Assembly (NCBI GenBank): GCA_025363575.1
Contig: JANYDM010000132.1
Coordinates: 1 to 20,056 of the forward strand
Direction of reading: 5' to 3'
Source of the DNA: Betaproteobacteria bacterium
Lineage (GTDB): Bacteria > Pseudomonadota > Gammaproteobacteria > Burkholderiales > SG8-41
DNA: 20,056 bases
Shown piece by piece: positions 182-20,056 of the stretch. The notes below the pieces were generated by a model. It was not told the origin of the DNA. It made no database searches and saw nothing but the letters and a program-made list of their open reading frames with translations. A program made the translations under genes and the position numbers. Within the stretch, counting starts at the first letter, position 1; the number at the start of each line of letters is the position of its first letter.

Positions 182-1843
<1,662 letters not shown>

Positions 1844-1924
1844 GTGGAGTGTGCCGAAAGGGAAAGGCGGCAATCATAGCGGAATGCGCGCCGTGCGGCA
1901 CCCCCGCGGAGCGCATTTCGGCCC

Positions 1925-2022
1925 CTTGTCGCCGGCTACCGTTCCAGCGTAACCACCTCTTGTCGGCGACGGCCGTTCCAGCGTAACCGCCTCTTGTCGG
2001 CGACGGCCGTTCCAGCGTAACC
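1925..2022. repeat. 34-bp tandem repeat, about 2.9 copies
   Basis: Copies begin at 1925, 1959 and 1993. The second and third are identical over their shared length and the first is diverged. The third copy loses its last four bases. Each unit contains CTTGTCG near its start and GTTCCAGCGTAACC near its end. The array fills most of the gap between divergent ettA and the gene at 2060, so it may be an operator array or a promoter duplication. I do not recognise the unit. Confidence 0.85.
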
Positions 2023-2059
2023 TTATCGCCGTACGAAAACATCTTCAGGGGGAGCTGCG

Positions 2060-2323
2060 ATGAGTTTCGATTCGACGATGAAGTTCAGCACCAACATGAA
2101 CCGCGCGGAAATCGACGCCATGCTCGCGGACTGCCGGACATTTGCGGGGGCGGCCGATCTGCCCGGCGTGGCGAAGCTGCTGACCGGCACCGAAGGCCTG
2201 GGCGCCGCCGACCTGAAGACCCGCATCATGGGATCGCTCGAGCAACTCGGCGGCAAAGACGAGTACGCGCTGCTGATCGACAAGCTCGATATGCTGCTGC
2301 TCAACCTGCCGAATCTGAAATAA
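2060..2323 (+). CDS. Conserved-looking small protein of unknown function
   Basis: This 87-residue protein starts at an ATG preceded by a strong Shine-Dalgarno sequence (AGGGGGAG, 2047-2053, spacing about 6). I do not recognise a family. The sequence has no signal peptide, no membrane helix and no cysteine. It looks mostly alpha-helical, with two short leucine-rich segments, one of them LDMLLLNLPNLK at the C-terminus. That suggests a small cytoplasmic helical-bundle or adaptor-like protein, but no function can be assigned. The gene lies just downstream of the 34-bp repeat array and converges on the small membrane-peptide gene at 2347-2505, with a GC-rich hairpin between them. Coding status is supported by the ribosome-binding site and by the absence of a better overlapping gene. 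Confidence 0.7.
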   Translation: MSFDSTMKFSTNMNRAEIDAMLADCRTFAGAADLPGVAKLLTGTEGLGAADLKTRIMGSLEQLGGKDEYALLIDKLDMLLLNLPNLK

Positions 2324-2326
2324 CTA

Positions 2327-2345
2327 CCGGGCGCGCAGAGCCCGG
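2327..2345. terminator. GC hairpin between convergent genes
   Basis: CCGGGC (2327-2332), a 7-nt loop and GCCCGG (2340-2345) form a 6-bp GC stem exactly between two convergent stop codons. No clear T run follows on either strand, so it is a probable but unproven bidirectional transcript end. Confidence 0.4.
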
Positions 2346-2346
2346 G

Positions 2347-2505
2347 TTAACGGCCCGTCGCCGCTACCGCAGCGTGCGTATCGGTGCCCGCACTTTGTCT
2401 CGCCGCGGCATTGCGCTTGCCTGCCGCATCGTCCCAACCAAATATGGCCGGCAGCGACACCAGCAAAACGGTCGCGACGCACAGGATCGCGTATAACTTG
2501 GCCAT
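2347..2505 (-). CDS. Small single-span membrane protein
   Basis: This is a 52-residue peptide starting MAKLYAILCVATVLLVSLPA. Residues 3-23 form one hydrophobic segment, followed by a polar, alanine-rich tail. The reading frame extends 21 codons further upstream, but the ATG at 2505 is preferred: it has a purine-rich GCGGAAAC stretch just before it and puts the hydrophobic segment at the N-terminus. The segment could be a membrane anchor or an uncleaved signal. No family is recognised. It is divergent from the exported hydrolase at 2595, with about 89 bases between, and convergent with the small gene at 2060. Evidence is the start context and the hydrophobic pattern only. Confidence 0.5.
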   Translation of the reverse strand: MAKLYAILCVATVLLVSLPAIFGWDDAAGKRNAAARQSAGTDTHAAVAATGR

Positions 2506-2594
2506 GTTAGTGTTTCCGCAATAAATGCCGGCATCAAGACCCGGCAGCGCCATTAACGGACAGTTCACCAGAAACTTTAGGACGGAGAAAGAAC

Positions 2595-4598
2595 ATGCAC
2601 GGAAAAACCCTCGCGGCCATGACGCTGCTGGCCAGCCTGGCCGCGCCAGCGCTCGCGCGCGTGACGCAGATCAACGTCGTCGCGGTCGAGCCTTTCGCCG
2701 ACGGCGCTACGTACGGCGCGACCGGCGCTTACGAGCGCGTGCGCGGCACGTTCAAAGGCGAGCTCGACCCGCTCGACGCGCGCAACAAGGTCGTCGTCAA
2801 TCTCGATAAAGCGCCCCGCAACGCGCGCGGCCGCGTCGAGTATGAAGCCGATTTCTTCCTGCTGCGCCCCGCCGATGCGGCGCGCGGCAACCGCAAGATC
2901 ATTTACGACGTCACCAACCGCGGCCGCAAGTTCATCCATTGGCGGCTGATGGACGCGCAGCCCGGCTCGGTTGCCGCCAGCAACGATCCCAGGAACGCCG
3001 CCGATGCGGGCACCGGGCTCTTTTTCCGCATGGGCTATACGCTCGCCTGGAGCGGGTGGGATTCCGAAGCGCCGCGCGAGTCCAACGGCCTGGCCATGAA
3101 CGCGGTGATTGCAACGGACAACGGCAAGCCCATTGTGCGCATGATCCGCGACGAACTCGTCAGCGGCACGCGCGAGCGCGTCGATCCGCCGAAGCCCGGC
3201 GAGCCGCCGCGCAAACAGGTGTTGAAGCTCTCATACGACGCGGCAACGCTGGACCAGGGCCGCGCGAAATTGACCGTGCGCCGCGGCGAGACCGACGCGC
3301 GCGTGGAAATTCCCGCCGCCAGCTGGGCGTACGCGGGGCCGCGCGCGATCGAACTGCTGCCCGCCGGCACGCAGCCGCAGCCCGGCGCGCTTTACGAATT
3401 CCACTACCCTGCGAAAGACCCGCGCGTGCTCGGCATCGGCATGGCGGCGACGCGTGATCTGATTTCGTATTTGCGCTACGACCAGAGCGTGAAGAACCCC
3501 GCACGCGCCGGCATCCGCACGACGCTCGCTTTCGGCATTTCGCAAAGCGGGCGTTTCCTGCGCGATTTCGTGCACGACGGCTTCAATCAGGACGAGGGCG
3601 CGCGCAAAGTGTTCGACGGCGTGCTCGCGCACACGGGGGGCGCCGGCGGCGTGTTCCTCAATCACGAATTCGGCCAGGCCAACCGCACGGCCACGCAACA
3701 CGAGGACCATACGTTTCCCGAAAACGCTTTCCCGTTTTCGAGCGCGCGCATGACCGATCCGGTGACGGGCAAGACCGCCGGCCTCTTGCGCGGCGATGGC
3801 TTCGACCCGCTGTGGATGGAGACCAACACGTCGACGGAATACTGGCAGAAAGGCGCATCGCTGCTCGTCACCGACCCGCTCGGCGAGCGCGACGTCGAAC
3901 TGCCGGGCAATGCGCGTGCGTACCTGATCGCCGGCACCCAGCACGGCGGCGCGGCGTGGATGACATCGACGACGGGCTCGTGCGTGAATCCGCGCAACCC
4001 CCACAGCCCGACGCCCGCGCTGCGCGCGCTGCTGGTCGCGCTCGACGAGTGGGCCAGCGACGGCAAGCTGCCCCCGCCCTCAATGACGCCGCGCATCGCC
4101 GATAAGACCTTCACCACCGCCGAGCGGCTCGCGTTTCCCGCCATACCGGGCGTTATGGTCGCGCGCCGCGTGAACACGATAGGCGTGCTGAAGGACTGGG
4201 TAGAGCCGGAAATGGACATGTCGCGGCCGTACCGCACGCTCGTGACGCAAGTCGACGCCGACGGCAACGAGATCGCCGGCATCCGGCTTACCGACATCGC
4301 CGCGCCGCTGGCGACTTACACGGGGTGGAATTATTACCGCGCGCCCTTTCCGGAAGGCGAGCTGTGCGACCGCGACGGCACGTACAAGCCGTTTGCCGCG
4401 ACGCGCGCCGAGCGCGAAGCCGCCAACGACCCGCGCCCGTCGCTGGCGGAACGGTATGGCGACCATGCCGGCTATGTAAAGAAAGTCGAGGATGCAGCCG
4501 CCAAACTTGTTGCCGCGCGCGTGCTGCTCAATGAAGATGCCGAACGGTTGATCGCGCGCGCGAAGAGCGAGGAGACGCGCGCGCGCTTTCCGCACTGA
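2595..4598 (+). CDS. Exported alpha/beta hydrolase-domain protein (Abhydrolase_10 type)
   Basis: This 667-residue protein has a cleavable signal peptide (residues 1-21, MHGKTLAAMTLLASLAAPALA), so it should act in the periplasm. It has the features of the large alpha/beta hydrolase-domain family of proteobacteria: an N-terminal beta-rich region with GATYGATGAYERVRG, then the nucleophile elbow GISQSGR with candidate catalytic Ser318, and a conserved-looking GTQHGG motif with His450 as a candidate active-site residue. The length fits the family. Substrates are largely uncharacterised; ester or amide hydrolysis is inferred from the fold. The start has GGAG at good spacing. A Bug solute-binding gene follows on the same strand after 66 bases, which suggests that hydrolysis product and captured solute may be linked. 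The exact reaction is unknown. Confidence 0.85.
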   Translation: MHGKTLAAMTLLASLAAPALARVTQINVVAVEPFADGATYGATGAYERVRGTFKGELDPLDARNKVVVNLDKAPRNARGRVEYEADFFLLRPADAARGNRKIIYDVTNRGRKFIHWRLMDAQPGSVAASNDPRNAADAGTGLFFRMGYTLAWSGWDSEAPRESNGLAMNAVIATDNGKPIVRMIRDELVSGTRERVDPPKPGEPPRKQVLKLSYDAATLDQGRAKLTVRRGETDARVEIPAASWAYAGPRAIELLPAGTQPQPGALYEFHYPAKDPRVLGIGMAATRDLISYLRYDQSVKNPARAGIRTTLAFGISQSGRFLRDFVHDGFNQDEGARKVFDGVLAHTGGAGGVFLNHEFGQANRTATQHEDHTFPENAFPFSSARMTDPVTGKTAGLLRGDGFDPLWMETNTSTEYWQKGASLLVTDPLGERDVELPGNARAYLIAGTQHGGAAWMTSTTGSCVNPRNPHSPTPALRALLVALDEWASDGKLPPPSMTPRIADKTFTTAERLAFPAIPGVMVARRVNTIGVLKDWVEPEMDMSRPYRTLVTQVDADGNEIAGIRLTDIAAPLATYTGWNYYRAPFPEGELCDRDGTYKPFAATRAEREAANDPRPSLAERYGDHAGYVKKVEDAAAKLVAARVLLNEDAERLIARAKSEETRARFPH

Positions 4599-4607
4599 CA
4601 CGCCGCG

Positions 4608-4630
4608 CTTTGCCGGCATGGCCGGCGAAG
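4608..4630 (+). terminator. Intergenic hairpin between hydrolase and Bug gene
   Basis: A 10-bp stem (one T-G pair) around GCCGGC-ATG-GCCGGC lies between the hydrolase stop and the Bug ribosome-binding site. No T run follows, so it may be an attenuating or mRNA-stabilising hairpin rather than a true terminator. Confidence 0.35.
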
Positions 4631-4664
4631 GTAGTATCGGACATTCCATTCAGGGAGTCCGCGC

Positions 4665-5645
4665 ATGACGCTCATCCGCCGCATCAGCCTGGCAGCAATC
4701 ACCGCGGTCATGGCCGGCGGCGTGCATGCGCAATCCAAACCCGCCGGCTATCCGGCGCGGCCGGTCAAAATCATCGTGCCGTTTCCCGCCGGCGGCGCCA
4801 CCGACATACTGACACGCGTCGTCGGACAAAGGCTCGGCGAGCGCATCGGCCAGCAGATGCCCGTCGACAACAAGCCCGGCGCGGGCGCCAACATAGGTGC
4901 CGAAGCCGCGGCGAAATCGCCGCCCGACGGTTACACGATATTGATGGGATCGATCGCATCGCACTCGATCGCCGTCAGCTACTACAAAAATCTCGGCTAT
5001 GACATCCGCAGGGATTTCGCGCCGATCGCGATGACCGGCGCGATCACCAACGTGCTGGTCGTGCATCCGGCGCTGCCGGTGCGCACCGTCAAGGATTTGA
5101 TCGCGCTGGCGAAGGCCCATCCGGGCGACCTGAACTATGCGTCATCGGGCACCGGCGGCCTCATACACTTGACCGGCGAGTTGTTCGCGCAAATGGCGAA
5201 AATAAAAATCGTGCACGTGCCGTACAAAGGCACCGCGCTGTTTCTCCCCGATCTTCTCAACGGCCAGATCGCGATGTCGCTCGACACCCTGCCGCCACAT
5301 CTACCGTTTATTCAGGCAGGCAAGCTGCGCGCGCTGGCGGTTACGACCGCGAAACGCTCGCCCGTGCTGCCCGATCTGCCGACGGTTGCGGAAGCGGCAC
5401 TGCCCGGTTTCGAATCGGTCGCGATTTACGCGCTGCTGGCTCCTGCCGGCACGCCCAGGGAAGTCGTGGCTTACCTGAACCGCGAAACCAACGCGGCGCT
5501 GCAGCTCGCGGACCTGCGAGAAAAACTATCTGCGCAGGGCATAGAAACGCTGGGCGGCACGTCCGAAGCTGTCGGCAGCATCATCAACAACGAAGTCGCA
5601 AAGTGGGCGCGTGTCATCAAGGACGGCGGGATCAAGCCCGAATAG
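4665..5645 (+). CDS. Bug/TctC-family periplasmic solute-binding protein (1)
   Basis: This 326-residue protein has a signal peptide ending near MAGGVHAQ (cleavage about residue 23), followed by the family hallmark YPARPVKIIVPFPAGGATD. Other Bug signatures are the DNKPGAGANIGAE loop, PPDGYT, LNYASSGTGG, VPYKGT and the C-terminal LPDLPTVAEAALPGFE. Bug proteins bind carboxylates, amides or aromatic acids in the periplasm and may feed a tripartite tricarboxylate transporter. No TctA or TctB gene is in the window, so this is an orphan receptor. AGGGAG (4652-4657) gives a good ribosome-binding site. It probably forms a transcription unit with the upstream hydrolase and converges on the tautomerase gene, with about 15 bases between stop codons. 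The ligand cannot be inferred. Confidence 0.93.
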   Translation: MTLIRRISLAAITAVMAGGVHAQSKPAGYPARPVKIIVPFPAGGATDILTRVVGQRLGERIGQQMPVDNKPGAGANIGAEAAAKSPPDGYTILMGSIASHSIAVSYYKNLGYDIRRDFAPIAMTGAITNVLVVHPALPVRTVKDLIALAKAHPGDLNYASSGTGGLIHLTGELFAQMAKIKIVHVPYKGTALFLPDLLNGQIAMSLDTLPPHLPFIQAGKLRALAVTTAKRSPVLPDLPTVAEAALPGFESVAIYALLAPAGTPREVVAYLNRETNAALQLADLREKLSAQGIETLGGTSEAVGSIINNEVAKWARVIKDGGIKPE

Positions 5646-5660
5646 AGAACCGCGCGCCCT

Positions 5661-6092
5661 TCAGCCGGCGACGCGCAGCCTGCGCGCGATCGACGCCGGC
5701 TTGCCGAACACATAGCGTTCTTCCTGGGTGATGCCGGCGTATCCATAGGCGGAGCCGCTCACGTCATTGATGAGCACGTACGATTTCTCGTGCACGCCGC
5801 CCAGCAGCTCGCCCATCTCCGCGTAGACCGCCGCGATATACGCCGACTTCTGCTCTTTGGTGTTGGTCTCGGCGGTAATGCTGATGTTGAGATGAAAACT
5901 GCGCACGCGCTGCGCCGCCAATGGCGTGTTCGCGATGAACCAGAGATCGGGCGAGACGAATTCGACTGCGACCGCGGTATCTGCCGGAGTCTTGCGCAAA
6001 TGTTCGGCAGTCAAAGCTGTAATCCGTTGCGCAACTGTCGCGGCAAGCTCAGTGTCACGCGCGCCGCTGATTTTGATCTGGATAAATGGCAT
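5661..6092 (-). CDS. Tautomerase-superfamily protein, double-length
   Basis: This 143-residue protein begins MPFIQIKISG, giving Pro as the residue exposed after Met removal, the catalytic general base of 4-oxalocrotonate tautomerase-like enzymes. The length is about twice the 60-75 residues of the single-unit enzymes. A second beta-alpha-beta half is visible from about residue 65 (SFHLNISITAETNTKEQK then YVLINDVSGSAYGYAG), as in the fused-subunit cis-CaaD/MSAD/MIF-like groups. The half boundary is approximate, and the second half has no internal catalytic Pro. The substrate is unknown; related enzymes act on enol or halogenated acids. AAGG precedes the ATG at about 6 nt. The gene is convergent with the Bug gene and lies downstream of the DUF2917 gene, separated by the palindromic repeat at 6151-6198. 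Confidence 0.8.
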   Translation of the reverse strand: MPFIQIKISGARDTELAATVAQRITALTAEHLRKTPADTAVAVEFVSPDLWFIANTPLAAQRVRSFHLNISITAETNTKEQKSAYIAAVYAEMGELLGGVHEKSYVLINDVSGSAYGYAGITQEERYVFGKPASIARRLRVAG

Positions 6093-6150
6093 AAGAGCCT
6101 TTCCGAGGAGCTATCTAAAAAAGCATTTAGTTACGGCGACCCAAAACTTG

Positions 6151-6198
6151 CCCTCCCCTTGTCCCCCAGGGGGACTTCCTTCGGGGCGAAAGGGAGGG
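6151..6198. repeat. Dispersed palindromic repeat, intergenic copy
   Basis: This 48-bp element matches 9010-9057 inside the fused uvrA gene at 46 of 48 positions in the same orientation. It folds as an outer stem (CCCTCCCCTT with the A/G-rich right end) closing two inner hairpins, GTCCCC with GGGGAC and CTTC with GAA(A/G). The result is a Y-shaped structure typical of REP-like or MITE-derived repeats. Here it sits just after the DUF2917 stop and may act as its transcript end. Confidence 0.85.
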
Positions 6199-6204
6199 GG
6201 TCTT

Positions 6205-6531
6205 TCAATAAACCCACTTGCGTGCCGGCCGCAGGGCTGCCGGCCCGAAACTGCGATCGAGAAACCCGACAAAACGTGACCACCAGCCGGTGTTCAGCTC
6301 ACGCGCGCGCACTTCGACGACGCTGGCCGTGTGCGCGGCCAATACCGTCACGCCGTCGCGCTCTACCGTAAAGGACTCGCCCGCATTCAGGATGACGTCA
6401 CGCGTGTCACCTTCCATCGTCAGCCACAAAGTGCCGCTGACGACCTTGATCGTGCTGTTGCGGACATTGCGCAATGCCAGGGAAGCCAGCGCCTCGAGTT
6501 CATGTTTCGTATGCAGGCTGCTCATGTTCAT
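6205..6531 (-). CDS. DUF2917 domain-containing protein
   Basis: This 108-residue protein has a central segment TIKVVSGTLWLTMEGDTRDV followed by LNAGESFTV, which matches the short cupin-like beta-sandwich known as DUF2917. That family is common in Burkholderiales and its biochemical role is not established. The start at 6531 is chosen because AAGGAG lies 6 bases upstream; the open frame extending to 6819 overlaps the divergent LysR gene and is not credible. The C-terminus carries a hydrophobic/basic tail (TGWWSRFVGFLDRSFGPAAL) that may contact the membrane. It is divergent from the LysR regulator at 6650, a pairing that suggests regulation by that protein. The family call is from the motif pattern only. 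Confidence 0.8.
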   Translation of the reverse strand: MNMSSLHTKHELEALASLALRNVRNSTIKVVSGTLWLTMEGDTRDVILNAGESFTVERDGVTVLAAHTASVVEVRARELNTGWWSRFVGFLDRSFGPAALRPARKWVY

Positions 6532-6649
6532 CGTATACTCCTTCAGTCGTCGTTTTGCCGTGCCCGGTGCTTTTCTACGCCTGCAGTTTGCGCCGGACGC
6601 CCGCTGCGCCACAAACGACATTTCGGCATTGATCGGATGAGTTATACGC

Positions 6650-7564
6650 ATGCGAAATAGCCGCCTGCCTTCGCTCGACCTGTTGCGCGGCTTCGAAGCG
6701 GCGGCGCGGCACATGAGCTTTACGCGCGCGGCTGCCGAGCTGCACGTCACGCAGTCCGCCATCAGCCGCCAGATCAAAACGCTCGAAGACCACCTTGGCG
6801 TCCCTTTGTTCAGGCGCATGAACCGCGCGCTGAAGCTGACGCCGGAAGGCGAGACGCTGTACGCGACCGCGCAATCGGTGATGCGTCAGATCGAGGACGC
6901 GACCGCCCGCCTCGGCGCACGCGACGACGCGCGCATGCTCACAGTGACAACGACCGTATCGTTTGCCGCGCTGTGGCTGGTGCCGCGCCTCGCGCGTTTT
7001 CGCGAAGCACGGCCCGGCATCGACGTGCGGCTTGCCGCGGGCAACGACTTGTCCAACCTCGAGCGCGACCGCATCGACATCGCCGTGCGTTTCCTTGAGC
7101 CGCGCGCGGCGCCCGCGGGCGCGCTGCCGCTGACAGGCGAGGAAGTCTTCCCGGTATGCAGCCCGGCGCTACTGCGCGATCGCGCGCGGCCGCTCAAAAA
7201 ACCCGCCGACCTCGCGCGCCACGTGATGCTGCACTACGACGACCCGGCGGGCCAGTGGCCGTGGCTCGCGTGGAACCAGTGGCTGGACGCGTTTCATCTC
7301 GGCGACCTCAAACCCGCGGGCATCGCGCGCTACAGCCACTACGACCAGCTGATACAGGCCGCGGTTGAAGGCGAAGGCGTCGCGCTCGGGCGCACGCCCC
7401 TGGTGCTGCGTTTTTTGAAGCGCGGGACGCTGGTGGCGCCGTTCCGCGACCGCGTGGCCGGCACGCGCGAGTATTTCATCATCGTCGCCCCGCAATCCGC
7501 GGCGCGCCCGCAAGTCAAACAATTCGTCAGCTGGCTGCAGCAGGAAATACGGCGCGAGCCTTAA
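6650..7564 (+). CDS. LysR-family transcriptional regulator, GcvA-like
   Basis: This 304-residue protein has the two-part LysR layout. The N-terminal winged helix-turn-helix (about residues 5-66) contains FEAAARHMSFTRAAAELHVT then QSAISRQIKTLEDHLG and PLFRR. A linker helix leads to a periplasmic-binding-protein-like effector domain (about 90-295). The wording of the HTH and the WPWLAWNQWL segment place it near GcvA-type regulators, but the effector is unknown. A GGATGAG stretch precedes the ATG. It is divergent from the DUF2917 gene over about 118 bases, the classical arrangement for LysR autoregulation and control of the neighbour. A C/G-rich hairpin follows the stop. Confidence 0.93.
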   Translation: MRNSRLPSLDLLRGFEAAARHMSFTRAAAELHVTQSAISRQIKTLEDHLGVPLFRRMNRALKLTPEGETLYATAQSVMRQIEDATARLGARDDARMLTVTTTVSFAALWLVPRLARFREARPGIDVRLAAGNDLSNLERDRIDIAVRFLEPRAAPAGALPLTGEEVFPVCSPALLRDRARPLKKPADLARHVMLHYDDPAGQWPWLAWNQWLDAFHLGDLKPAGIARYSHYDQLIQAAVEGEGVALGRTPLVLRFLKRGTLVAPFRDRVAGTREYFIIVAPQSAARPQVKQFVSWLQQEIRREP

Positions 7565-7589
7565 CAATCCGCATGATGAATAGTTAATT

Positions 7590-7615
7590 CCCTCCCCCCG
7601 CCAAGGGGGAAGGCG
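7590..7615. repeat. C/G hairpin related to the left end of the uvrA insertion element
   Basis: A C-rich arm, a GCCAA loop and a G-rich arm form a hairpin between the convergent LysR and hemerythrin genes. The sequence closely resembles 8905-8928, the left end of the element inserted in the fused uvrA, with one length change and a few substitutions. It may be a solo end of the same repeat family and may also end both transcripts. Confidence 0.55.
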
Positions 7616-7642
7616 TCTGTCCGTGGAATCACCGCGAGGTGT

Positions 7643-8047
7643 TTACTCCGCCTGGCAGCCCTTATCGGCCATATACAGCGCAAGCACTGCATCCATCGAC
7701 AGCGCATGTTGCGGAAACCATTCGGCCAGCGCCACCGCCAGCCGGCGGCCCAGTTGCGTATCGCCGGCGGCTACGCGACCGCGCACTTCGCGCGCCGTTT
7801 CAAGGATTTTCTCGTGCTCGCCGCGATGGCAGCCCAGCGGCGGAAACTGCAGGCTCTCCATCCATTCTTCTTCCTGATGGAAATGGGCCTGCGTATGCGC
7901 GATGAAGTCGTCGAGCGCGGGCAGCACATCGCCATCCGCGGCCGCGCCCACGCGGTTCAGCTGCGCGACGAATTCGCGATGTGTGTCGTCCATGGCCGGT
8001 TGACCGACTTCGAGCTGCTCCGACCAGGCGAGTACGGGTTGCTTCAA
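7643..8047 (-). CDS. Bacteriohemerythrin
   Basis: This 134-residue single-domain hemerythrin binds O2 at a non-haem di-iron site in the cytoplasm. All seven expected ligands can be placed: His23 (DDTHREF), His55 and Glu59 (HFHQEEEWM), His74 and His78 (CHRGEHEK), His114 and Asp119 (PQHALSMD). VLAWSEQLEVGQPAMD is the usual family N-terminus. I choose a TTG start at 8047: GGAG lies about 7 bases upstream and the start gives the family length. A GTG 17 codons further upstream would put the start ahead of the probable -10 box (TATACT, 8073-8078). It is divergent from the fused uvrA gene. The role is probably oxygen binding, delivery or sensing. Confidence 0.9.
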   Translation of the reverse strand: MKQPVLAWSEQLEVGQPAMDDTHREFVAQLNRVGAAADGDVLPALDDFIAHTQAHFHQEEEWMESLQFPPLGCHRGEHEKILETAREVRGRVAAGDTQLGRRLAVALAEWFPQHALSMDAVLALYMADKGCQAE

Positions 8048-8072
8048 AACACTTCTCCGAGAAACCAGCCGC

Positions 8073-8078
8073 AGTATA
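8073..8078 (-). promoter_or_regulatory. Probable -10 box for the hemerythrin gene
   Basis: TATACT on the minus strand would give a transcript start about 19 bases before the TTG at 8047, leaving room for the GGAGAAG ribosome-binding site. The -35 region is poor. Confidence 0.35.
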
Positions 8079-8128
8079 TCCGCGGGGGCACTTGACACAC
8101 CAGTTACAATACAAAGCAGAGCAAACGG

Positions 8129-8150
8129 TGCGGGGAACTACGCTCCCGCA
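8129..8150 (+). promoter_or_regulatory. Leader hairpin upstream of the fused uvrA
   Basis: TGCGGG (8129-8134) and CCCGCA (8145-8150) form a stem about 40 bases before the uvrA-like start. No Shine-Dalgarno sequence is visible between it and the ATG, so the hairpin may influence translation. This is inference. Confidence 0.3.
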
Positions 8151-8188
8151 GCGCAGTCCTACCCCGCCTAATCCGCATTCTGCCTGTC

Positions 8189-11100
8189 ATGAAACCCAAC
8201 GAAAATCTGCCGCTCGATTTTGACGCCATAACTATTTTCGGCGCGCGTCAAAACAATCTGAAAAACATCTCGCTCGCGTTACCGCTTAACGAGCTGATCG
8301 TCGTCACCGGCGTGTCCGGCTCCGGCAAATCATCGCTGGTGTTCGACACGCTGTATGCCGAAGGCCAGCGCCGCTATGTCGAAACGTTTTCTCCATACGC
8401 GCGGCAATTCCTCGATCGCATGGACAAGCCGCAGGTCGACGCGATCCACGGCATCCCGCCGGCGATTGCCATCGACCAGACCAATCAGGTGCGCACGTCA
8501 CGTTCGACCGTCGGCACGATGACCGAGCTGAACGATCACCTGAAGCTGCTGTTCGCGCGCACAGCGCAATTGTTCTGCCGCGGCTGCGGCCGCTCCATCC
8601 GCCGCGACACGCCCGACACGATTTACGCGGAGATGGCCGCGCGCGCGCAGGCCGCCGGCGACCCGCGCCTGATCGTCACGTTTCCGGTTCCGGTGCCGAA
8701 AAATTTCTCCGGGAAGGAAGTGAAGGAACTGCTGGGGGCGCAGGGTTACACCCGTTTTCACCGTGAAGACAAAGACCTGATCGAAGTCGTGCAGGACCGG
8801 CTGCGCATCGGCGCGGCCGAACGGGTGCGCGTGATCGAAGGCTTGGAAGCGGCGCTGCGTATTGGTGTTGGACGGGTGAATGTCTATCCTCGCGCTGACG
8901 AATCCCCCCCGTCGAAGGGGGAGGGCGAGCACAGCGGCGAGGAGGCAACCGGGCGGGGGATGGGGGACGTCACGCCTCATGATCACGCTCACCCCCATCC
9001 CCACCCTAACCCTCCCCTTGTCCCCCAAGGGGACTTCCTTCGGGGCGAAGGGGAGGGAAATATAGTCTGGCGCTTCTCTTCCGACCTGCACTGTGCCGAC
9101 TGCGACATCCATTACGCAGACCCTACGCCCAGCCTCTTCTCGTTCAATTCGCCTATAGGCGCGTGCGAGGAATGTCGCGGGTTCGGGCGCGTGATCGGCA
9201 TCGACTTCGGCCTCATCGTTCCCGACGAAGCGAAAACGCTGCGCGGGGGCGCCGTGCGTCCGTGGCAGACGCCGAGTTTTCACGAGTGCCAGGACGACAT
9301 CGAGAAGTACGCGAAAAAGCGCGGTATCCCGCTCGACACGCCGTGGCGCGACCTGACGGCGAAGCAAAAAGGCTGGGTGCTCGAAGGCGAGCCCGAATGG
9401 ATAAGCTGGAAGAAATCGTGGCCCGGCACCTGGTACGGCGTGCGGCGCTTCTTCAAGTGGCTGGAATCCAAAGCCTACAAAATGCACATCCGCGTGCTGC
9501 TTTCGAAGTATCGCGCGTATACGCCGTGCGAAGCCTGCGGCGGCGCGCGCCTGAAACCCGATGCGCTCGCGTGGCGGCTGGGCAGCAAGCAGGATGCGGA
9601 CGGCGTGTTGCCGCCTACGCAGCGCTATCGCGCGAACACGATGCGCTACGACGACGAAATCCTGCGCGCGCTGCCGGGGCTTACCGTGCACGACCTGATG
9701 CTGCTGGCGATAGATCAGACGCGCACGTTCGTCGATCACCTTCATCTACCGGCGCTCGCAGGGAAGAAGGCACAAACTGAAAATGCAGTGAATGCGAGCG
9801 CTACGAACGCCGCCGGGGTCGCATCCCCTGAAGGGGCCACTGCTTCGCCCTCCAGCGTTCAACTGGATGAGGCGACAGATCTGCTGCTGGCGGAAATCCG
9901 CGCGCGCCTGTCGTATCTTGCGCAGGTCGGGCTCGGCTATCTGACGCTCGACCGCCAATCGCGCACGCTTTCCGGTGGCGAAGTGCAGCGCATCAACCTG
10001 ACGACCGCGCTCGGCACCTCGCTGGTCAACACGCTGTTCGTTCTCGACGAGCCGTCGATCGGCCTGCATCCGCGCGACATGGAACGCGTGATCGGCGTAA
10101 TGCACCGGCTGCGCGACGCGGGCAATTCGCTCGTCGTCGTCGAGCACGAGCCGCAAATCATGTTCGCTGCCGACCGCATACTCGACATGGGCCCGGGCCC
10201 CGGCGAGCGCGGCGGCGAAATCGTCTGTTTCGACACGCCCGCGCGGCTGATGCAAACGCATACGCTGACCGCCGAGTATCTGTCGGGCCGCAAACGCGCC
10301 GACAGCGGCGTTCAGCCCGTGGCGCCGGCGGAGCGCGGCGCGAAAATCGAAATTCTGGGCGCCGCCGAGCACAATCTCAAACACGTCGATGTCGCGATTC
10401 CGCTCAACCGGCTCGTGTGCGTGACGGGCGTGTCGGGTTCGGGCAAATCGACGCTCGTGCAGGATGTGCTGTACGCGGCGCTGCTCAAGCACAAAGGCAA
10501 GCCGACTGAGACGCCGGGCGCGCACCGTGCGATCCATGGCCATCAGTTGATCGATGAAGTCGTCATGGTCGACCAGTCATCGATCGGCCGCACGACGCGC
10601 TCGAACCCGGCCAGCTATGTCGGCGCGTTCGATGCGATACGCGAACTCTACGCGCAGGCGCCGCTGGCCAAAGAGCGCAGCTACACGCGCGGCACGTTCA
10701 GCTTCAATTCCGGCAACGGCCGCTGCCCGACTTGCGGCGGCAACGGTTTCGAGCACGTCGAGATGCAGTTCCTGTCGGACGTCTACCTGCGCTGCCCCGA
10801 TTGCGACGGCAGGCGCTTTCGCCCGGAAGTGCTCGAAGTCACGCTTGAAAACAAATCGATCGCCGACGTGCTCGAGTTGACAGTGCACGAAGCGCTGACA
10901 TTCTTCGCCGGACATTACAGCGTGTGCGCCGCGTTGAAACCGCTTGCCGACGTCGGCCTCGACTATCTGCGCCTCGGCCAGCCGGTGCCTACGCTGTCGG
11001 GCGGCGAAGCGCAGCGGTTGAAGCTCGCGGGGCATTTGGTCGAGGTCGCGCAAAGCAAGCGCGCCGCGGCGATGCCGAAACCCCGCAAGAAAAAAGGCTT

Positions 11101-14100
11101 CAAGGCGCTGCTGTCGACGATTTTCACCTCCAGCGTCAAGCCCGCGCAAAAGGCGCCAGTACCGGCCGCGAAAAAAACACTGTTTCTGTTCGACGAACCG
11201 ACCACGGGCCTGCACTTCGACGACGTCGCCAAACTGCTGCGCGCTTTCCGCCAGCTCATTGCTGCGGGCAATTCGCTCGTCGTCATTGAACACAATCTCG
11301 ATGTCATAGGCGCAGCGGACTGGATCATCGACCTCGGGCCCGAGGGCGGCCATGCCGGAGGCGAAATCATCTGCACCGGCATGCCCGCGGAAATCAAACG
11401 GCATGCGACTTCGCACACGGGCAAGGCGCTGCGCGAGTACGAAGCGGCTTTAACGCAAGGTGAGTATGCAAGCAAAACTCCATCCCCCCTCGCCGGACCC
11501 AAGTCTCCAAAATTTATCACCGCATTGTCGGCGGGTGGCGCTGACGCCGCGGTCGCATCCCCTAAAGGGGCCCCTGCTCTGCGCGACGTCATCGCTATCC
11601 ACAACGCCCGCGAGCACAACCTCAAGAACATCGACGTCACGATTCCGCGCAATCAGTTCACCGTCGTGACCGGCGTTTCCGGCAGCGGCAAGAGCACGCT
11701 CGCATTCGACATCGTTTTCGCGGAGGGCCAGCGCCGTTACCTTGAATCGCTCAACGCGTACGCGCGCCAGTTCGTGCAGCCCGCTTCCAAGCCTGACGTC
11801 GACGCAATTTACGGCATTCCGCCGACCGTCGCGATCGAGCAGCGCACCAGCCGCGGCGGCCGCAAGAGCACGGTCGCGACGCTGACCGAGATCTATCACT
11901 TTTTGCGGCTGCTGTTCGTGAAGCTCGGCACGCAATACTGTCCGGACTGCAACGCGGCGATCGAGCCGCAATCGATCGATGCGATTGCCGCACGCATATT
12001 GAAGATCTACCGCGGCAGCCGCATCGGGCTGCTGGCACCCCTGGTCGTCGCGCGCAAAGGCTATTACACCGACCTCGCCAAATGGGCGCTCGGCAAAGGC
12101 TATACGCACCTGCGCGTGGACGGTGAGTTCATACCGACCGACAAATGGCCGCGGCTCGACCGTTTTCACGAGCACAACATCGAGCTGCCCGTGGCTGACG
12201 TGCGTGTCGCCGCGGACAACGAAGCGGAGCTGCGCGCCGCGCTTGCCCGTGCGCTCGATCTCGGCAAGGGCGTCATCCACGTGCTGGCGCCGCTGGACGC
12301 GCTGGCGAAAGCCATGCAGAACAAAGACGCCGCGGTGGGTCCGATGAGCGCCACCGTTTACTCTGTCAAACGCGCGTGCCCGTCGTGCAGCCGCAGTTTT
12401 CCGGAACTCGACCCGCGCCTGTTTTCCTTCAACTCCAAGCACGGCTGGTGCGGCGAATGTTACGGCACCGGACTGAAACTGACGGACGTCGGCTGGGACG
12501 ACGAGCGCGCCAAGACGGGCGCCGAAGACCACGTGCTCGACTCGTGGATCGAGTGGCTGGAGGTCGACGAGACCTGCCCGTCGTGCAACGGCAAGCGGCT
12601 CAACCGCGAAGCGCTCGCGGTGCGCTACCGCGACCGCTCCATCGCCGACATCACGGCCCTCGCCGTCGGCAAAGTCGAAGCGCTGTTCCGCGATATCACG
12701 CTCGCCGGGCGCGAAGCGGAAATCGCGCGCGACCTCGTCGTCGAACTGAAATCGCGCCTCGACTTCCTGAATCAGGTCGGCCTGTCGTATCTCGCGCTCG
12801 ACCGCTCGGCGCCAACCTTGTCCGGCGGCGAAGCACAGCGCATCCGTCTGGCGGCTCAGCTCGGCTCCAATCTGCGCGGCGTGTGCTACATCCTCGACGA
12901 GCCGACGATAGGACTGCATCCGCGCGACAACCGCGTGCTGCTCGACACGCTCGAAAAATTGCAGCGCAAGGGCAATACGCTGCTCGTCGTCGAGCACGAC
13001 GAGGACACCATACGCCGCGCCGCACACGTGATCGACCTGGGGCCGGGTGCAGGCAAAGTAGGCGGCGAAGTCATCGCTGCGGGCACCGCCGCGGAGCTGA
13101 TGAATAATCCGGCGTCCATCACCGGCAGATTTCTCGCTCATCCTCTGCAGCACCCGCTGCATCCGCCGCGCGCGGTCAACAAGCAAACGCCGGCGATCGA
13201 AATTATCGGCGCGAGGCTGCACAATCTGCGCAACGTGGACTCACGCCTCCCGCTCGGCCGCCTGACGGTCGTCACCGGCGTGTCGGGCTCGGGCAAGTCG
13301 ACGCTCGCGCGCGATGTGCTGTATGCGAATCTCGCGCAGCGCGTAGGCGAGCATAACAAGAAGAAGACGCCGGCCCTCATCGGCTGCCGCGATCTCAAAG
13401 GCTGGCAGCACGTGGGCCGCGTTCTCGAGGTCGACCAGACGCCGATCGGCAAGACGCCGCGTTCCTGCCCCGCCACGTATGTCGGCTTCTGGGACACGAT
13501 ACGGCGGCTCTTTGCGGACGCAACCGAAGCGCGCATGCGCGGCTACACCGCAAGCCGCTTCTCGTTCAATACCAAAGGCGGCCGCTGCGAGGGCTGCGAA
13601 GGCCAGGGCATCAAGCGCATCGAGATGAGCTTCCTGCCCGACGTCAAAGTGCTGTGCGAAGTATGCAACGGCGCGCGCTTCAATCCCGAGACGCTGGCGG
13701 TGCAATTCAAGGGCAAGTCGATTGGCGACGTGCTGGCGATGAGCGTCGACGAAGCGGTCGAATTCTTCAGCGCACACACGTCTATCCATCACGCGCTGCG
13801 CCTGTTGCAGAATGTCGGCCTCGGCTACCTCACGCTGGGCCAGCAAAGCCCGACGCTCTCAGGCGGCGAGGCGCAGCGCATCAAGCTCGTCACCGAGCTT
13901 TCGAAAGTGAGGCTGGGCGATGACGCCGGCGCGCGGCCGGGGCGCGCGGGCGCGCAGAAGCATACGCTGTACGTGCTGGACGAGCCGACCGTCGGCCTGC
14001 ACATGGCCGACGTCGAGAAGCTCATCCTCGTGCTGCACCGGCTGGTGGACGCGGGCAACACCGTCGTCGTCATCGAGCACAACCTCGACGTGATGGCGGA

Positions 14101-14257
14101 TGCCGACTGGATCATCGATCTGGGGCCCGAAGGCGGGGACGGCGGCGGACGCATCGTCGCGCAAGGCGCGCCACCCGCGCTCGCCGCGAAAAAGAACGCG
14201 ACGCATACGACGCGCGTGCTGGCGGAGTTTCTCGCGGAGCGCACTGTCCGCGCTTGA
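8189..14257 (+). CDS. uvrA: Double-length UvrA: two fused excinuclease ABC subunit A units
   Basis: This 2022-residue protein is two UvrA units head to tail (about 1-1090 and 1130-2022); ordinary UvrA is about 940. Four Walker A motifs GVSGSGKS lie at 41, 747, 1162 and 1697. Four LSGGE signatures lie at 594, 936, 1544 and 1890, each followed by a DEP-type Walker B. Both units keep the UvrB-interacting region and the CxxC zinc modules (CADC/CEEC, CPTC/CPDC in unit 1; CPSC/CGEC, CEGC/CEVC in unit 2). UvrA dimers find DNA lesions and load UvrB; this chain could form the dimer internally. Unit 1 carries insertions: 239-290, about 530-560, and a Lys-rich stretch at about 955-995. The 1095-1130 linker includes another repeat. 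I recall similar proteins annotated as UvrA paralogs in Bordetella. No Shine-Dalgarno sequence is seen. A normal uvrA probably exists elsewhere. Confidence 0.93.
8903..9058. mobile_element. MITE-like palindromic insertion inside uvrA, in frame
   Basis: This 156-bp (52-codon) segment interrupts the region between the UvrB-interacting domain and the first zinc module. It is strongly strand-asymmetric and palindromic. The left end is a C-run/G-run hairpin. An 11-bp perfect inverted repeat pairs 8956-8966 (GGGGATGGGGG) with 8992-9002. The right end (9010-9057) is the dispersed repeat also found at 6151-6198. It encodes a Pro/Gly/His-rich stretch including [13 protein letters not shown], unlike any UvrA domain. 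No transposase is present. Exact ends and target duplication cannot be fixed from one copy. Confidence 0.7.
9010..9057. repeat. Dispersed palindromic repeat, copy inside uvrA
   Basis: It matches the intergenic copy at 6151-6198 at 46 of 48 positions, in the same orientation, with the same Y-shaped fold. The two differences preserve the stems. It is translated as part of the fused UvrA protein. Confidence 0.88.
9817..9844. repeat. 28-bp palindromic repeat in uvrA, copy 1
   Basis: The core CCCC-TGAA-GGGG is a small hairpin. The 28 bases match 11551-11578 with two differences. Both copies are read in the same frame, here as VASPEGATA. This copy lies just before the helix leading to the first LSGGE signature. 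Confidence 0.8.
11551..11578. repeat. 28-bp palindromic repeat in uvrA, copy 2
   Basis: The second copy of the repeat at 9817-9844, here read as VASPKGAPA. It lies in the linker joining the two UvrA units. The flanking sequence (GACGCCGC here, GAACGCCGCC there) is also alike, so the true repeat is probably longer, with a 3-bp indel. Confidence 0.8.
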
Positions 14258-19906: not shown

Positions 19907-19930
19907 CAGCAAAAAGACATCGGCCATAGA

Positions 19931-20056
19931 GAGCACAGGGAGCACAGGGAGCACAGAGAGCACAGAGAGCACAGAGAGCACAGAGAGCACAGAGAGCACA
20001 GGGAGCACAGGGAGCACAGAGAGCACAGAGAGCACAGAGAGCACAGAGAGCACAGA
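19931..20056. repeat. 9-bp tandem repeat with 63-bp higher-order period, cut by window end
   Basis: Exactly 14 copies of GAGCACAGR are present. The last base alternates in a fixed order, two units ending GG then five ending GA, and this seven-unit (63-bp) block occurs twice (19931-19993 and 19994-20056) without a mismatch. The array starts 24 bases after the third Bug gene and continues beyond the window. Because 9 is a multiple of 3, open frames cross it on both strands (Glu-His-Arg repeats in one plus frame), but no start or ribosome-binding site supports translation. Confidence 0.95.

Follow-up and report, generated by a model that had tools for sequence, protein, structure and literature searches.

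Results

The fused uvrA gene and its in-frame insert

The stretch of DNA analysed here (the window) comprises 20,056 nucleotides of a contig from a Betaproteobacteria bacterium (JANYDM010000132.1), and it contains an ORF on the forward strand (8189-14257) that encodes a double, or fused, UvrA of 2022 residues. The protein scores above cut-off with two UvrA equivalog models, NF001503 (2009.7 bits, cut-off 1147) and TIGR00630 (1969.4 bits, cut-off 729.8), and below cut-off with NF001885, an excinuclease ABC subunit A model of 1809 residues (1113.1 bits, cut-off 3054). The features of the gene and the repeats related to it are collected in Table 1.

Table 1 Repeat-related features in and near the fused uvrA of the window.
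Feature	Position	Strand	Basis
Fused (double) uvrA, 2022 aa	8189..14257	+	ORF; NF001503 and TIGR00630 above cut-off; dN/dS 0.10-0.18 against three relatives
Composite repeat captured in frame, linker between UvrB-binding domain and first zinc module	8903..9057	+	Plan as in dispersed copies, by reading
Short hairpin of the composite element	8903..8925	+	Window reading and relatives' copies
Arms GGGGGATGGGG / CACCCCCATCCCC with spacer	8926..9009	+	Paired in predicted fold; similar arms in relatives' copies
Long hairpin (CCCTCCCCTTG - 27-bp unit - AAGGGGAGGG)	9010..9057	+	46/48 to 6151-6198
Nested 27-bp unit, read as VPQGDFLRG	9021..9047	+	P0002 has 9 residues fewer here
Second copy of the long hairpin, outside ORF 5661-6092	6151..6198	+	46/48 match
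Short hairpin of similar make-up, between LysR and hemerythrin ORFs	7590..7615	+	Resemblance by eye
Further repeat in another uvrA linker (residues 523-559), stretch missing in P0002	9811..9844	+	Repeat family D19
Partner of the 9811-9844 repeat, in linker 1088-1134	11545..11578	+	91% identical

As the initial annotation had proposed, a stretch of about 156 bp (8903-9058) lies in frame inside this ORF, which stays open through it without a stop. Its boundaries are approximate. The whole linker, which joins the UvrB-binding domain to the first zinc module, spans 8891-9061 (171 nt, 57 residues), is 44 residues longer than the short linker (39 nt) of a nearby relative, L072, and corresponds to the place between chain residues 254 and 270 of a solved UvrA (3zqj numbering).

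The reported match between the right end of the insert and the repeat upstream is confirmed by a scan of the window (46 of 48 positions identical) and is far above the controls: the next best matches of the same 48-mer reach 27/48 on the forward strand and 36/48 on the reverse strand, while 40 random 48-mers of the window find forward-strand matches of at most 40 positions (mean 28.2). The single-strand fold of the insert is modestly better than that of its shuffles (z -1.76; 8 of 200 equally good), and the linker, owing to its interrupted stem, fails a hairpin test free of motifs (8 pairs, p 0.08). It is repeat identity, and not the fold, that is strong evidence for the element in the window; the left hairpin resembles 7590-7615 on visual comparison only, and an Rfam scan of the window gave no family reaching its gathering score.

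The repeat in the other linker of the same gene (9811-9844) was followed with the stretch 9795-9860, which is matched in four of six relatives tested, at two to three places each, one match being G041's own uvrA by position. Elsewhere in the window, a 34-bp tandem repeat of about three copies (1921-2022) lies just outside an ettA-like ORF (182-1873), and a 9-bp tandem array of about 14 copies (19928-20056) reaches the window end. When 182-14257 is set beside the related locus L001, gene order up to the LysR gene is common to both, by ORF sizes; the presumed uvrA of L001, a long open frame with its start at L001:16505, is separated from LysR by about 5.6 kb with other ORFs, against 0.6 kb in the window.

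Composite copies in related genomes

Relatives were reached from the window's LysR through L001 (Betaproteobacteria MAG RYN_557; 79% identity), which led to a family of 74 genomes, and copies of the window element were counted in these relatives, not in the organism's own genome. In the closest of them a composite layout recurs dispersed, made of a short hairpin, GGGGATGGGG/CCCCATCCCC arms and a long hairpin. A 62-base query with the right arm gave matches in 40 of the 74 relatives, many over the 27-bp unit only; G002, G040, G042 and G043 have listed right-arm matches of at least 40 bases at 83-95% identity, and 18 copies, all from these four genomes, were read with their flanks. The full plan (short hairpin, GGTGGGGATGGG-like arm, spacer, CCCATCCCC-like arm, long hairpin) was found by reading in 14 of these 18 and was not seen in L187, L189, L190 and L199. 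A strict regular expression for the composite recovers seven of the 18, with lengths of 114-130 nt (the loci L188 and L196 being almost identical), and misses the window copy, which is longer (155 nt) and diverged in its left half. The stretch 8900-8970 is matched at two places in G042 and at two in G043, the uvrA of G043 among them, and at none in G001, G002 or G040. The most fitting reading of 8903-9057 is thus that of a composite element of the kind dispersed in the relatives, and the earlier proposal that a dispersed palindromic element has been captured as coding sequence gains support from these like composites.

By a crude ORF rule (at least 80 aa), nine of the 18 right-arm copies lie outside ORFs, one at an edge and eight inside, so that "intergenic" is not supported for all; several of the ORFs that hold copies have only 80-175 aa and are perhaps spurious. 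The CCCTCCCC-N-GGGGAGGG palindrome occurs in 57 of the 74 genomes, with up to 80 copies per genome against 0-1 for the backward control. In 20 regions each of G048 and G032, picked away from contig ends, 26/31 and 23/27 repeat copies are outside ORFs or at their edges, again by a crude rule.

A hairpin stands at each end of the composite, by reading, and five aligned locus groups contain no clear target-site duplication. Neither GTAG nor CGTC was found on reading the ends of the window copy; CGTC directly precedes the short hairpin in four of the six G002 copies printed (not in L182 and L187), and does not in the G042 copies L188 and L191. Y1_Tnp was detected in five of eight genomes tested and not in G001, G040 or G032, although G040 and G032 carry repeats.

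A 27-bp unit nested in the long hairpin

The long hairpin encloses a unit of 27 bp. At the position of the long-hairpin peptide, P0002, the closest UvrA, has PSPPLEGEG, nine residues fewer than the window protein, and it also lacks a stretch of 35 residues at 523-559. Elsewhere the unit occurs alone, in tandem at an exact spacing of 27 bp, or nested in other hairpins. Among 61 unit sites, which are the top of the listed matches to a query with REP flanks, 24 (39%) have flanks that pair over at least six bases, compared with 1.2% at random positions. Without the 14 sites fetched for the REP arm, 15 of 47 (52 loci) are paired, whereas mispaired flanks reach 3.3% (at most 13% in 500 shuffles), and these 15 represent 15 different flank pairs; independent insertions of the unit are fewer, because several sites share related host repeats and the query held REP flanks. 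The unit is often in hairpin loops, and its copy number is variable inside a gene. It is open in all six frames, even in tandem, which taken alone is weak evidence, 33% of shuffled 27-mers being likewise open. An exact 25-base core of the unit is present in 9 of 300 genomes drawn from the order, three of them on the family's list.

Several unit-bearing loci may be described for themselves. Two homologues with an AHSA1 domain, L208:724-1266 and L250:526-1014, carry three and one in-frame copies, respectively (APKEVPLGG). A 645-aa ORF on the reverse strand with no Pfam match (L204:910-2847) has five and two in-frame copies at two places, and a related open stretch in L207 has three copies at one of these places. 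At L199:1250-1276 the unit stands alone, within an ORF of apparent transposase type.

One linker, many fillers

The linker was compared in 60 related regions, one per genome for 60 of the 74 genomes, the other 14 having no strong or only a partial fused match. Its length is a multiple of three in all 60 and in the window, ranging from 9 to 321 nt (3-107 residues), and is at least 45 nt in 32 of the 61 loci, window included; in 120 aligned fused UvrAs (the best listed of 7301) it measures 7-73 residues, with a common short form of 12-13. The insert is not a one-off, since the site varies in length among the fused UvrAs compared and is occupied by unrelated repeats. The fillers comprise a C-rich hairpin class like that of the window, a second hairpin class (ACCCCTCC...GGAGGGG), 7-bp tandem arrays, mixtures, and unremarkable sequence. 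Motif-free shuffle tests detect a hairpin or a 7-bp array in 22 of the 32 long linkers versus 1 of the 29 shorter ones, and ten long linkers, the window's included, fail them.

When linker DNA was compared with its own genome it matched 8 places in G043, 67 in G032 (query: the first 101 nt) and 89 in G048, self included, of which 2, 7 and 3, respectively, are inside the same uvrA by position. Matches at the linkers' own loci lie mostly within the same uvrA because only the insert had been masked; once the entire frame is masked, a linker match nearby but outside uvrA persists in L062 and L068 alone. The linker of L067 (1540-1860) contains a 48-bp palindromic repeat, translated as TPALRATPPLEGGAPT, in several tandem copies, and the first 101 nt of this linker find 67 places in its genome, seven of them within the same uvrA. 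The 7-bp units of L104, L105 and L106 differ (CTCATCC, CGGTCAC and CTCAGCA), and each recurs in other parts of the same uvrA.

A uvrA tree was built by a quick method with the linker left out (18 of 58 inner branches open). For the window, L054 and L067 the state was taken from copy evidence, the 7-bp state also includes L069, L076, L079 and L103, for which the threshold was relaxed, and 31 of the 61 rows count as having no repeat. On this tree the five linker states require at least 20 changes, and the presence or absence of a repeat 14; the well-supported (starred) branches alone force at least seven changes for the 7-bp state, six for the first hairpin class and two for the second. Shuffled labels need 27.3 changes on average versus 20, which indicates that the states are clustered on the tree; given also the fillers shared by the close loci L065 and L071, the linker rows are not all independent.

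Repeat density and the ordinary UvrA as a control

Within the same loci, 7-bp arrays occur at 0.086 per kb in fused uvrA, 0.0035 in other genes and 0.055 between genes, and hairpins of at least 10 pairs at 0.206, 0.037 and 0.357 per kb; by a crude ORF rule, fused uvrA is thus 24 times denser than other genes in arrays and 5.5 times in hairpins, and array periods of 4-6 and 8-12 show no excess comparable to that of period 7. Motif regular expressions, with 65 hits in 321 kb against 3 in 576 kb of other genes, put the enrichment at 39-fold, but we prefer the motif-free test because the motifs came from uvrA inserts. The linker at issue accounts for 8 of 27 arrays, 8 of 65 hairpins and none of the 15 hairpins of at least 12 pairs. 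Other linkers of the fused UvrA vary too (109 sequences): ten length-variable intervals, making up 12.9% of the residues, hold all 27 arrays and 35 of the 65 uvrA hairpins, the other 30 being outside them. The window uvrA has no array or hairpin at the thresholds of this interval test.

Among the matches listed were 20 further UvrA loci, of which L128, aligning only from profile position 267, and L129, judged by alignment, are of a different type. At the equivalent site, 17 of the other 18, the ordinary UvrAs, have no insert; the exception is L126:1245-4418, the ordinary UvrA of G009, a genome with no strong fused UvrA match, in which an 83-aa insert of an LTPxPSP-type repeat occupies the equivalent linker. 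L115 and L126 score 1557 and 1510 bits as UvrA (cut-off 1147), and the remaining loci were recognised by motifs. In 16 genomes that have both forms, the ordinary UvrA never carries an insert (0/16), while the fused linker is at least 45 nt in 8/16. The description of the fused protein as an essential-type enzyme was therefore too strong, as these 16 relatives possess both fused and ordinary UvrA.

Constraint on the gene and disorder of the linker

The fused uvrA is under purifying selection, with dN/dS of 0.06-0.18 in 12 pairs, including pairs with and without inserts; the values for pairs with the window are rough because dS is near 1. Against this constraint the linkers look permissive. AlphaFold places residues 240-288 below a pLDDT of 50, beside a UvrB-binding domain near 95, in a model that is weak overall (mean 61; 214 of 460 residues below 50), and the linker is thus predicted to be disordered.

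Discussion

In this study we find that about 156 bp of the window's fused uvrA are very probably a composite REP-like dispersed element, lying in frame in a disordered linker. This reading builds on the repeat identity, on unrelated fillers at one site, on multi-copy matches in three genomes, and on selection acting on the gene. Such an element would have come to rest in a linker that appears to tolerate almost any in-frame filler, and with this tolerance genomic repeats would end up there repeatedly and with different sequences, while purifying selection would keep the rest of the fused UvrA intact. The insertion may be near neutral, and the mover could be a transposase, or replication or recombination acting on hairpins. 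The in-frame state of the linkers is survivor bias, and genomic repeats seem to find a sink in the floppy joints of the fused UvrA.

Linkers might instead lengthen through local slippage or duplication of GC-rich sequence, with no capture of dispersed elements. Indeed, the 7-bp arrays and the 48-bp tandem of L067 resemble local expansion and could have grown by slippage, L104-L106 have matching arrays in other parts of the same uvrA, and the copy number of the 27-bp unit differs between L208 and L250 (3 vs 1). As a general account this is unlikely, because composites with the same arms are found elsewhere in relatives and the DNA of a linker can recur at up to 89 places of the genome that carries it, self included.

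The added peptide could also be under selection for what it does, be it binding of metal through the His-rich stretch, which the initial annotation had suggested, or tuning of UvrB loading. The linker does join the UvrB-binding domain and the zinc module, and a similar His/Pro stretch is shared with six other listed homologues (P0002, P0022, P0034, P0036, P0052 and P0099); most of the listed homologues have other fillers. The stretch is, however, CACCCCCATCCCCACCC read in one frame; the linker varies from 3 to 107 residues with a sequence that changes with repeat class and frame, related loci have 11-13 residues or other fillers, and P0002 lacks both the nine-residue block and the 35-aa stretch at 523-559. 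We consider a selected function very improbable and metal binding unsupported. That REP insertion in repair genes is selected as mutator-creating, a speculation in the part of PMC3733652 consulted, which lists uvrA, uvrB and recB among the repair genes with REPs, is hardly credible here, as the fused gene is still under purifying selection and the ordinary UvrA is spared in 16/16 paired genomes. On these grounds, varied linker length and sequence for the one, purifying selection and the spared ordinary UvrA for the other, the metal-binding and mutator readings were rejected.

Within the captured composite, the 27-bp unit might tentatively be regarded as a separate miniature repeat, nine codons long and gene-safe, which prefers hairpin loops, with fused UvrA linkers as a sink for such repeats, a reading that we consider less likely than not. 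Being exactly nine codons and open in six frames, it could enter genes and expand in them without disrupting them. If real, its preference for hairpin loops would point to an uncharacterised route for short DNA movement. Moreover, a linker filled many times by unrelated DNA, with the ordinary paralogue of the same cells as a control, constitutes a natural experiment in which passage from repeat to protein by neutral tolerance or by selection becomes directly testable. For annotators, peptides such as PHPNPPLEGEG, SRLTPHAS and APKEVPLGG can be translated repeats.

The open-licence literature searched yielded nothing on a refilled linker, the contrast with ordinary UvrA or the 27-bp unit, nothing on APKEVPLGG or APQGDFLRG, and nothing on a fused UvrA paralogue in Betaproteobacteria; the only match for CTTCCTTCGGGG concerns cell migration.

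In RAYT/REP systems, Y1-type transposases move hairpin DNA. Such a system is a plausible type of mover; Y1_Tnp was found here in five of eight genomes tested, and not in the repeat-carrying G040 and G032. The present repeats are short palindromes in many copies, as REPs are; that they lie mostly outside genes, as REPs do, is less clear.

The initial annotation knew of no described case in UvrA, a remark that fails since REPs inside uvrA are already published: the portion of PMC3733652 consulted reports double REP insertions in both uvrA genes of Opitutus terrae and, for a Thioalkalivibrio uvrA, two dimers of REPs, raises the possibility that flexible linkers are neutral sites, and places REPs in genes of one category at different sites, except in Xanthomonas recB. 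Like the REPs described in that portion, the present repeats are short palindromes, often paired, within uvrA, and sometimes at two sites per gene. The REPs there belong to GTAG/CGTC-tagged families of single species, whereas here unrelated repeat classes share one linker across a family and the ordinary UvrA is spared in paired genomes. In enterobacterial RU elements (PMC2759123), intergenic repeats likewise provide open frames inside genes; the units measure 103-168 bp, and the abstract of that paper does not mention a refilled site.

As in the Rickettsia palindromic elements (RPE) treated in the consulted parts of PMC2229807 and PMC3733652, a palindrome is tolerated in frame in a conserved protein; in the RPE work covered by the former, guanylate kinase with an insert is active. 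RPE are described there for one lineage, while the present element is nested and shares its site with 7-bp arrays in relatives. We liken it to RPE by behaviour and do not file it as a member. As far as searched, repeat capture in uvrA is thus known in kind, and what is new is the recurrent sink together with the nested unit of 27 bp and nine codons.
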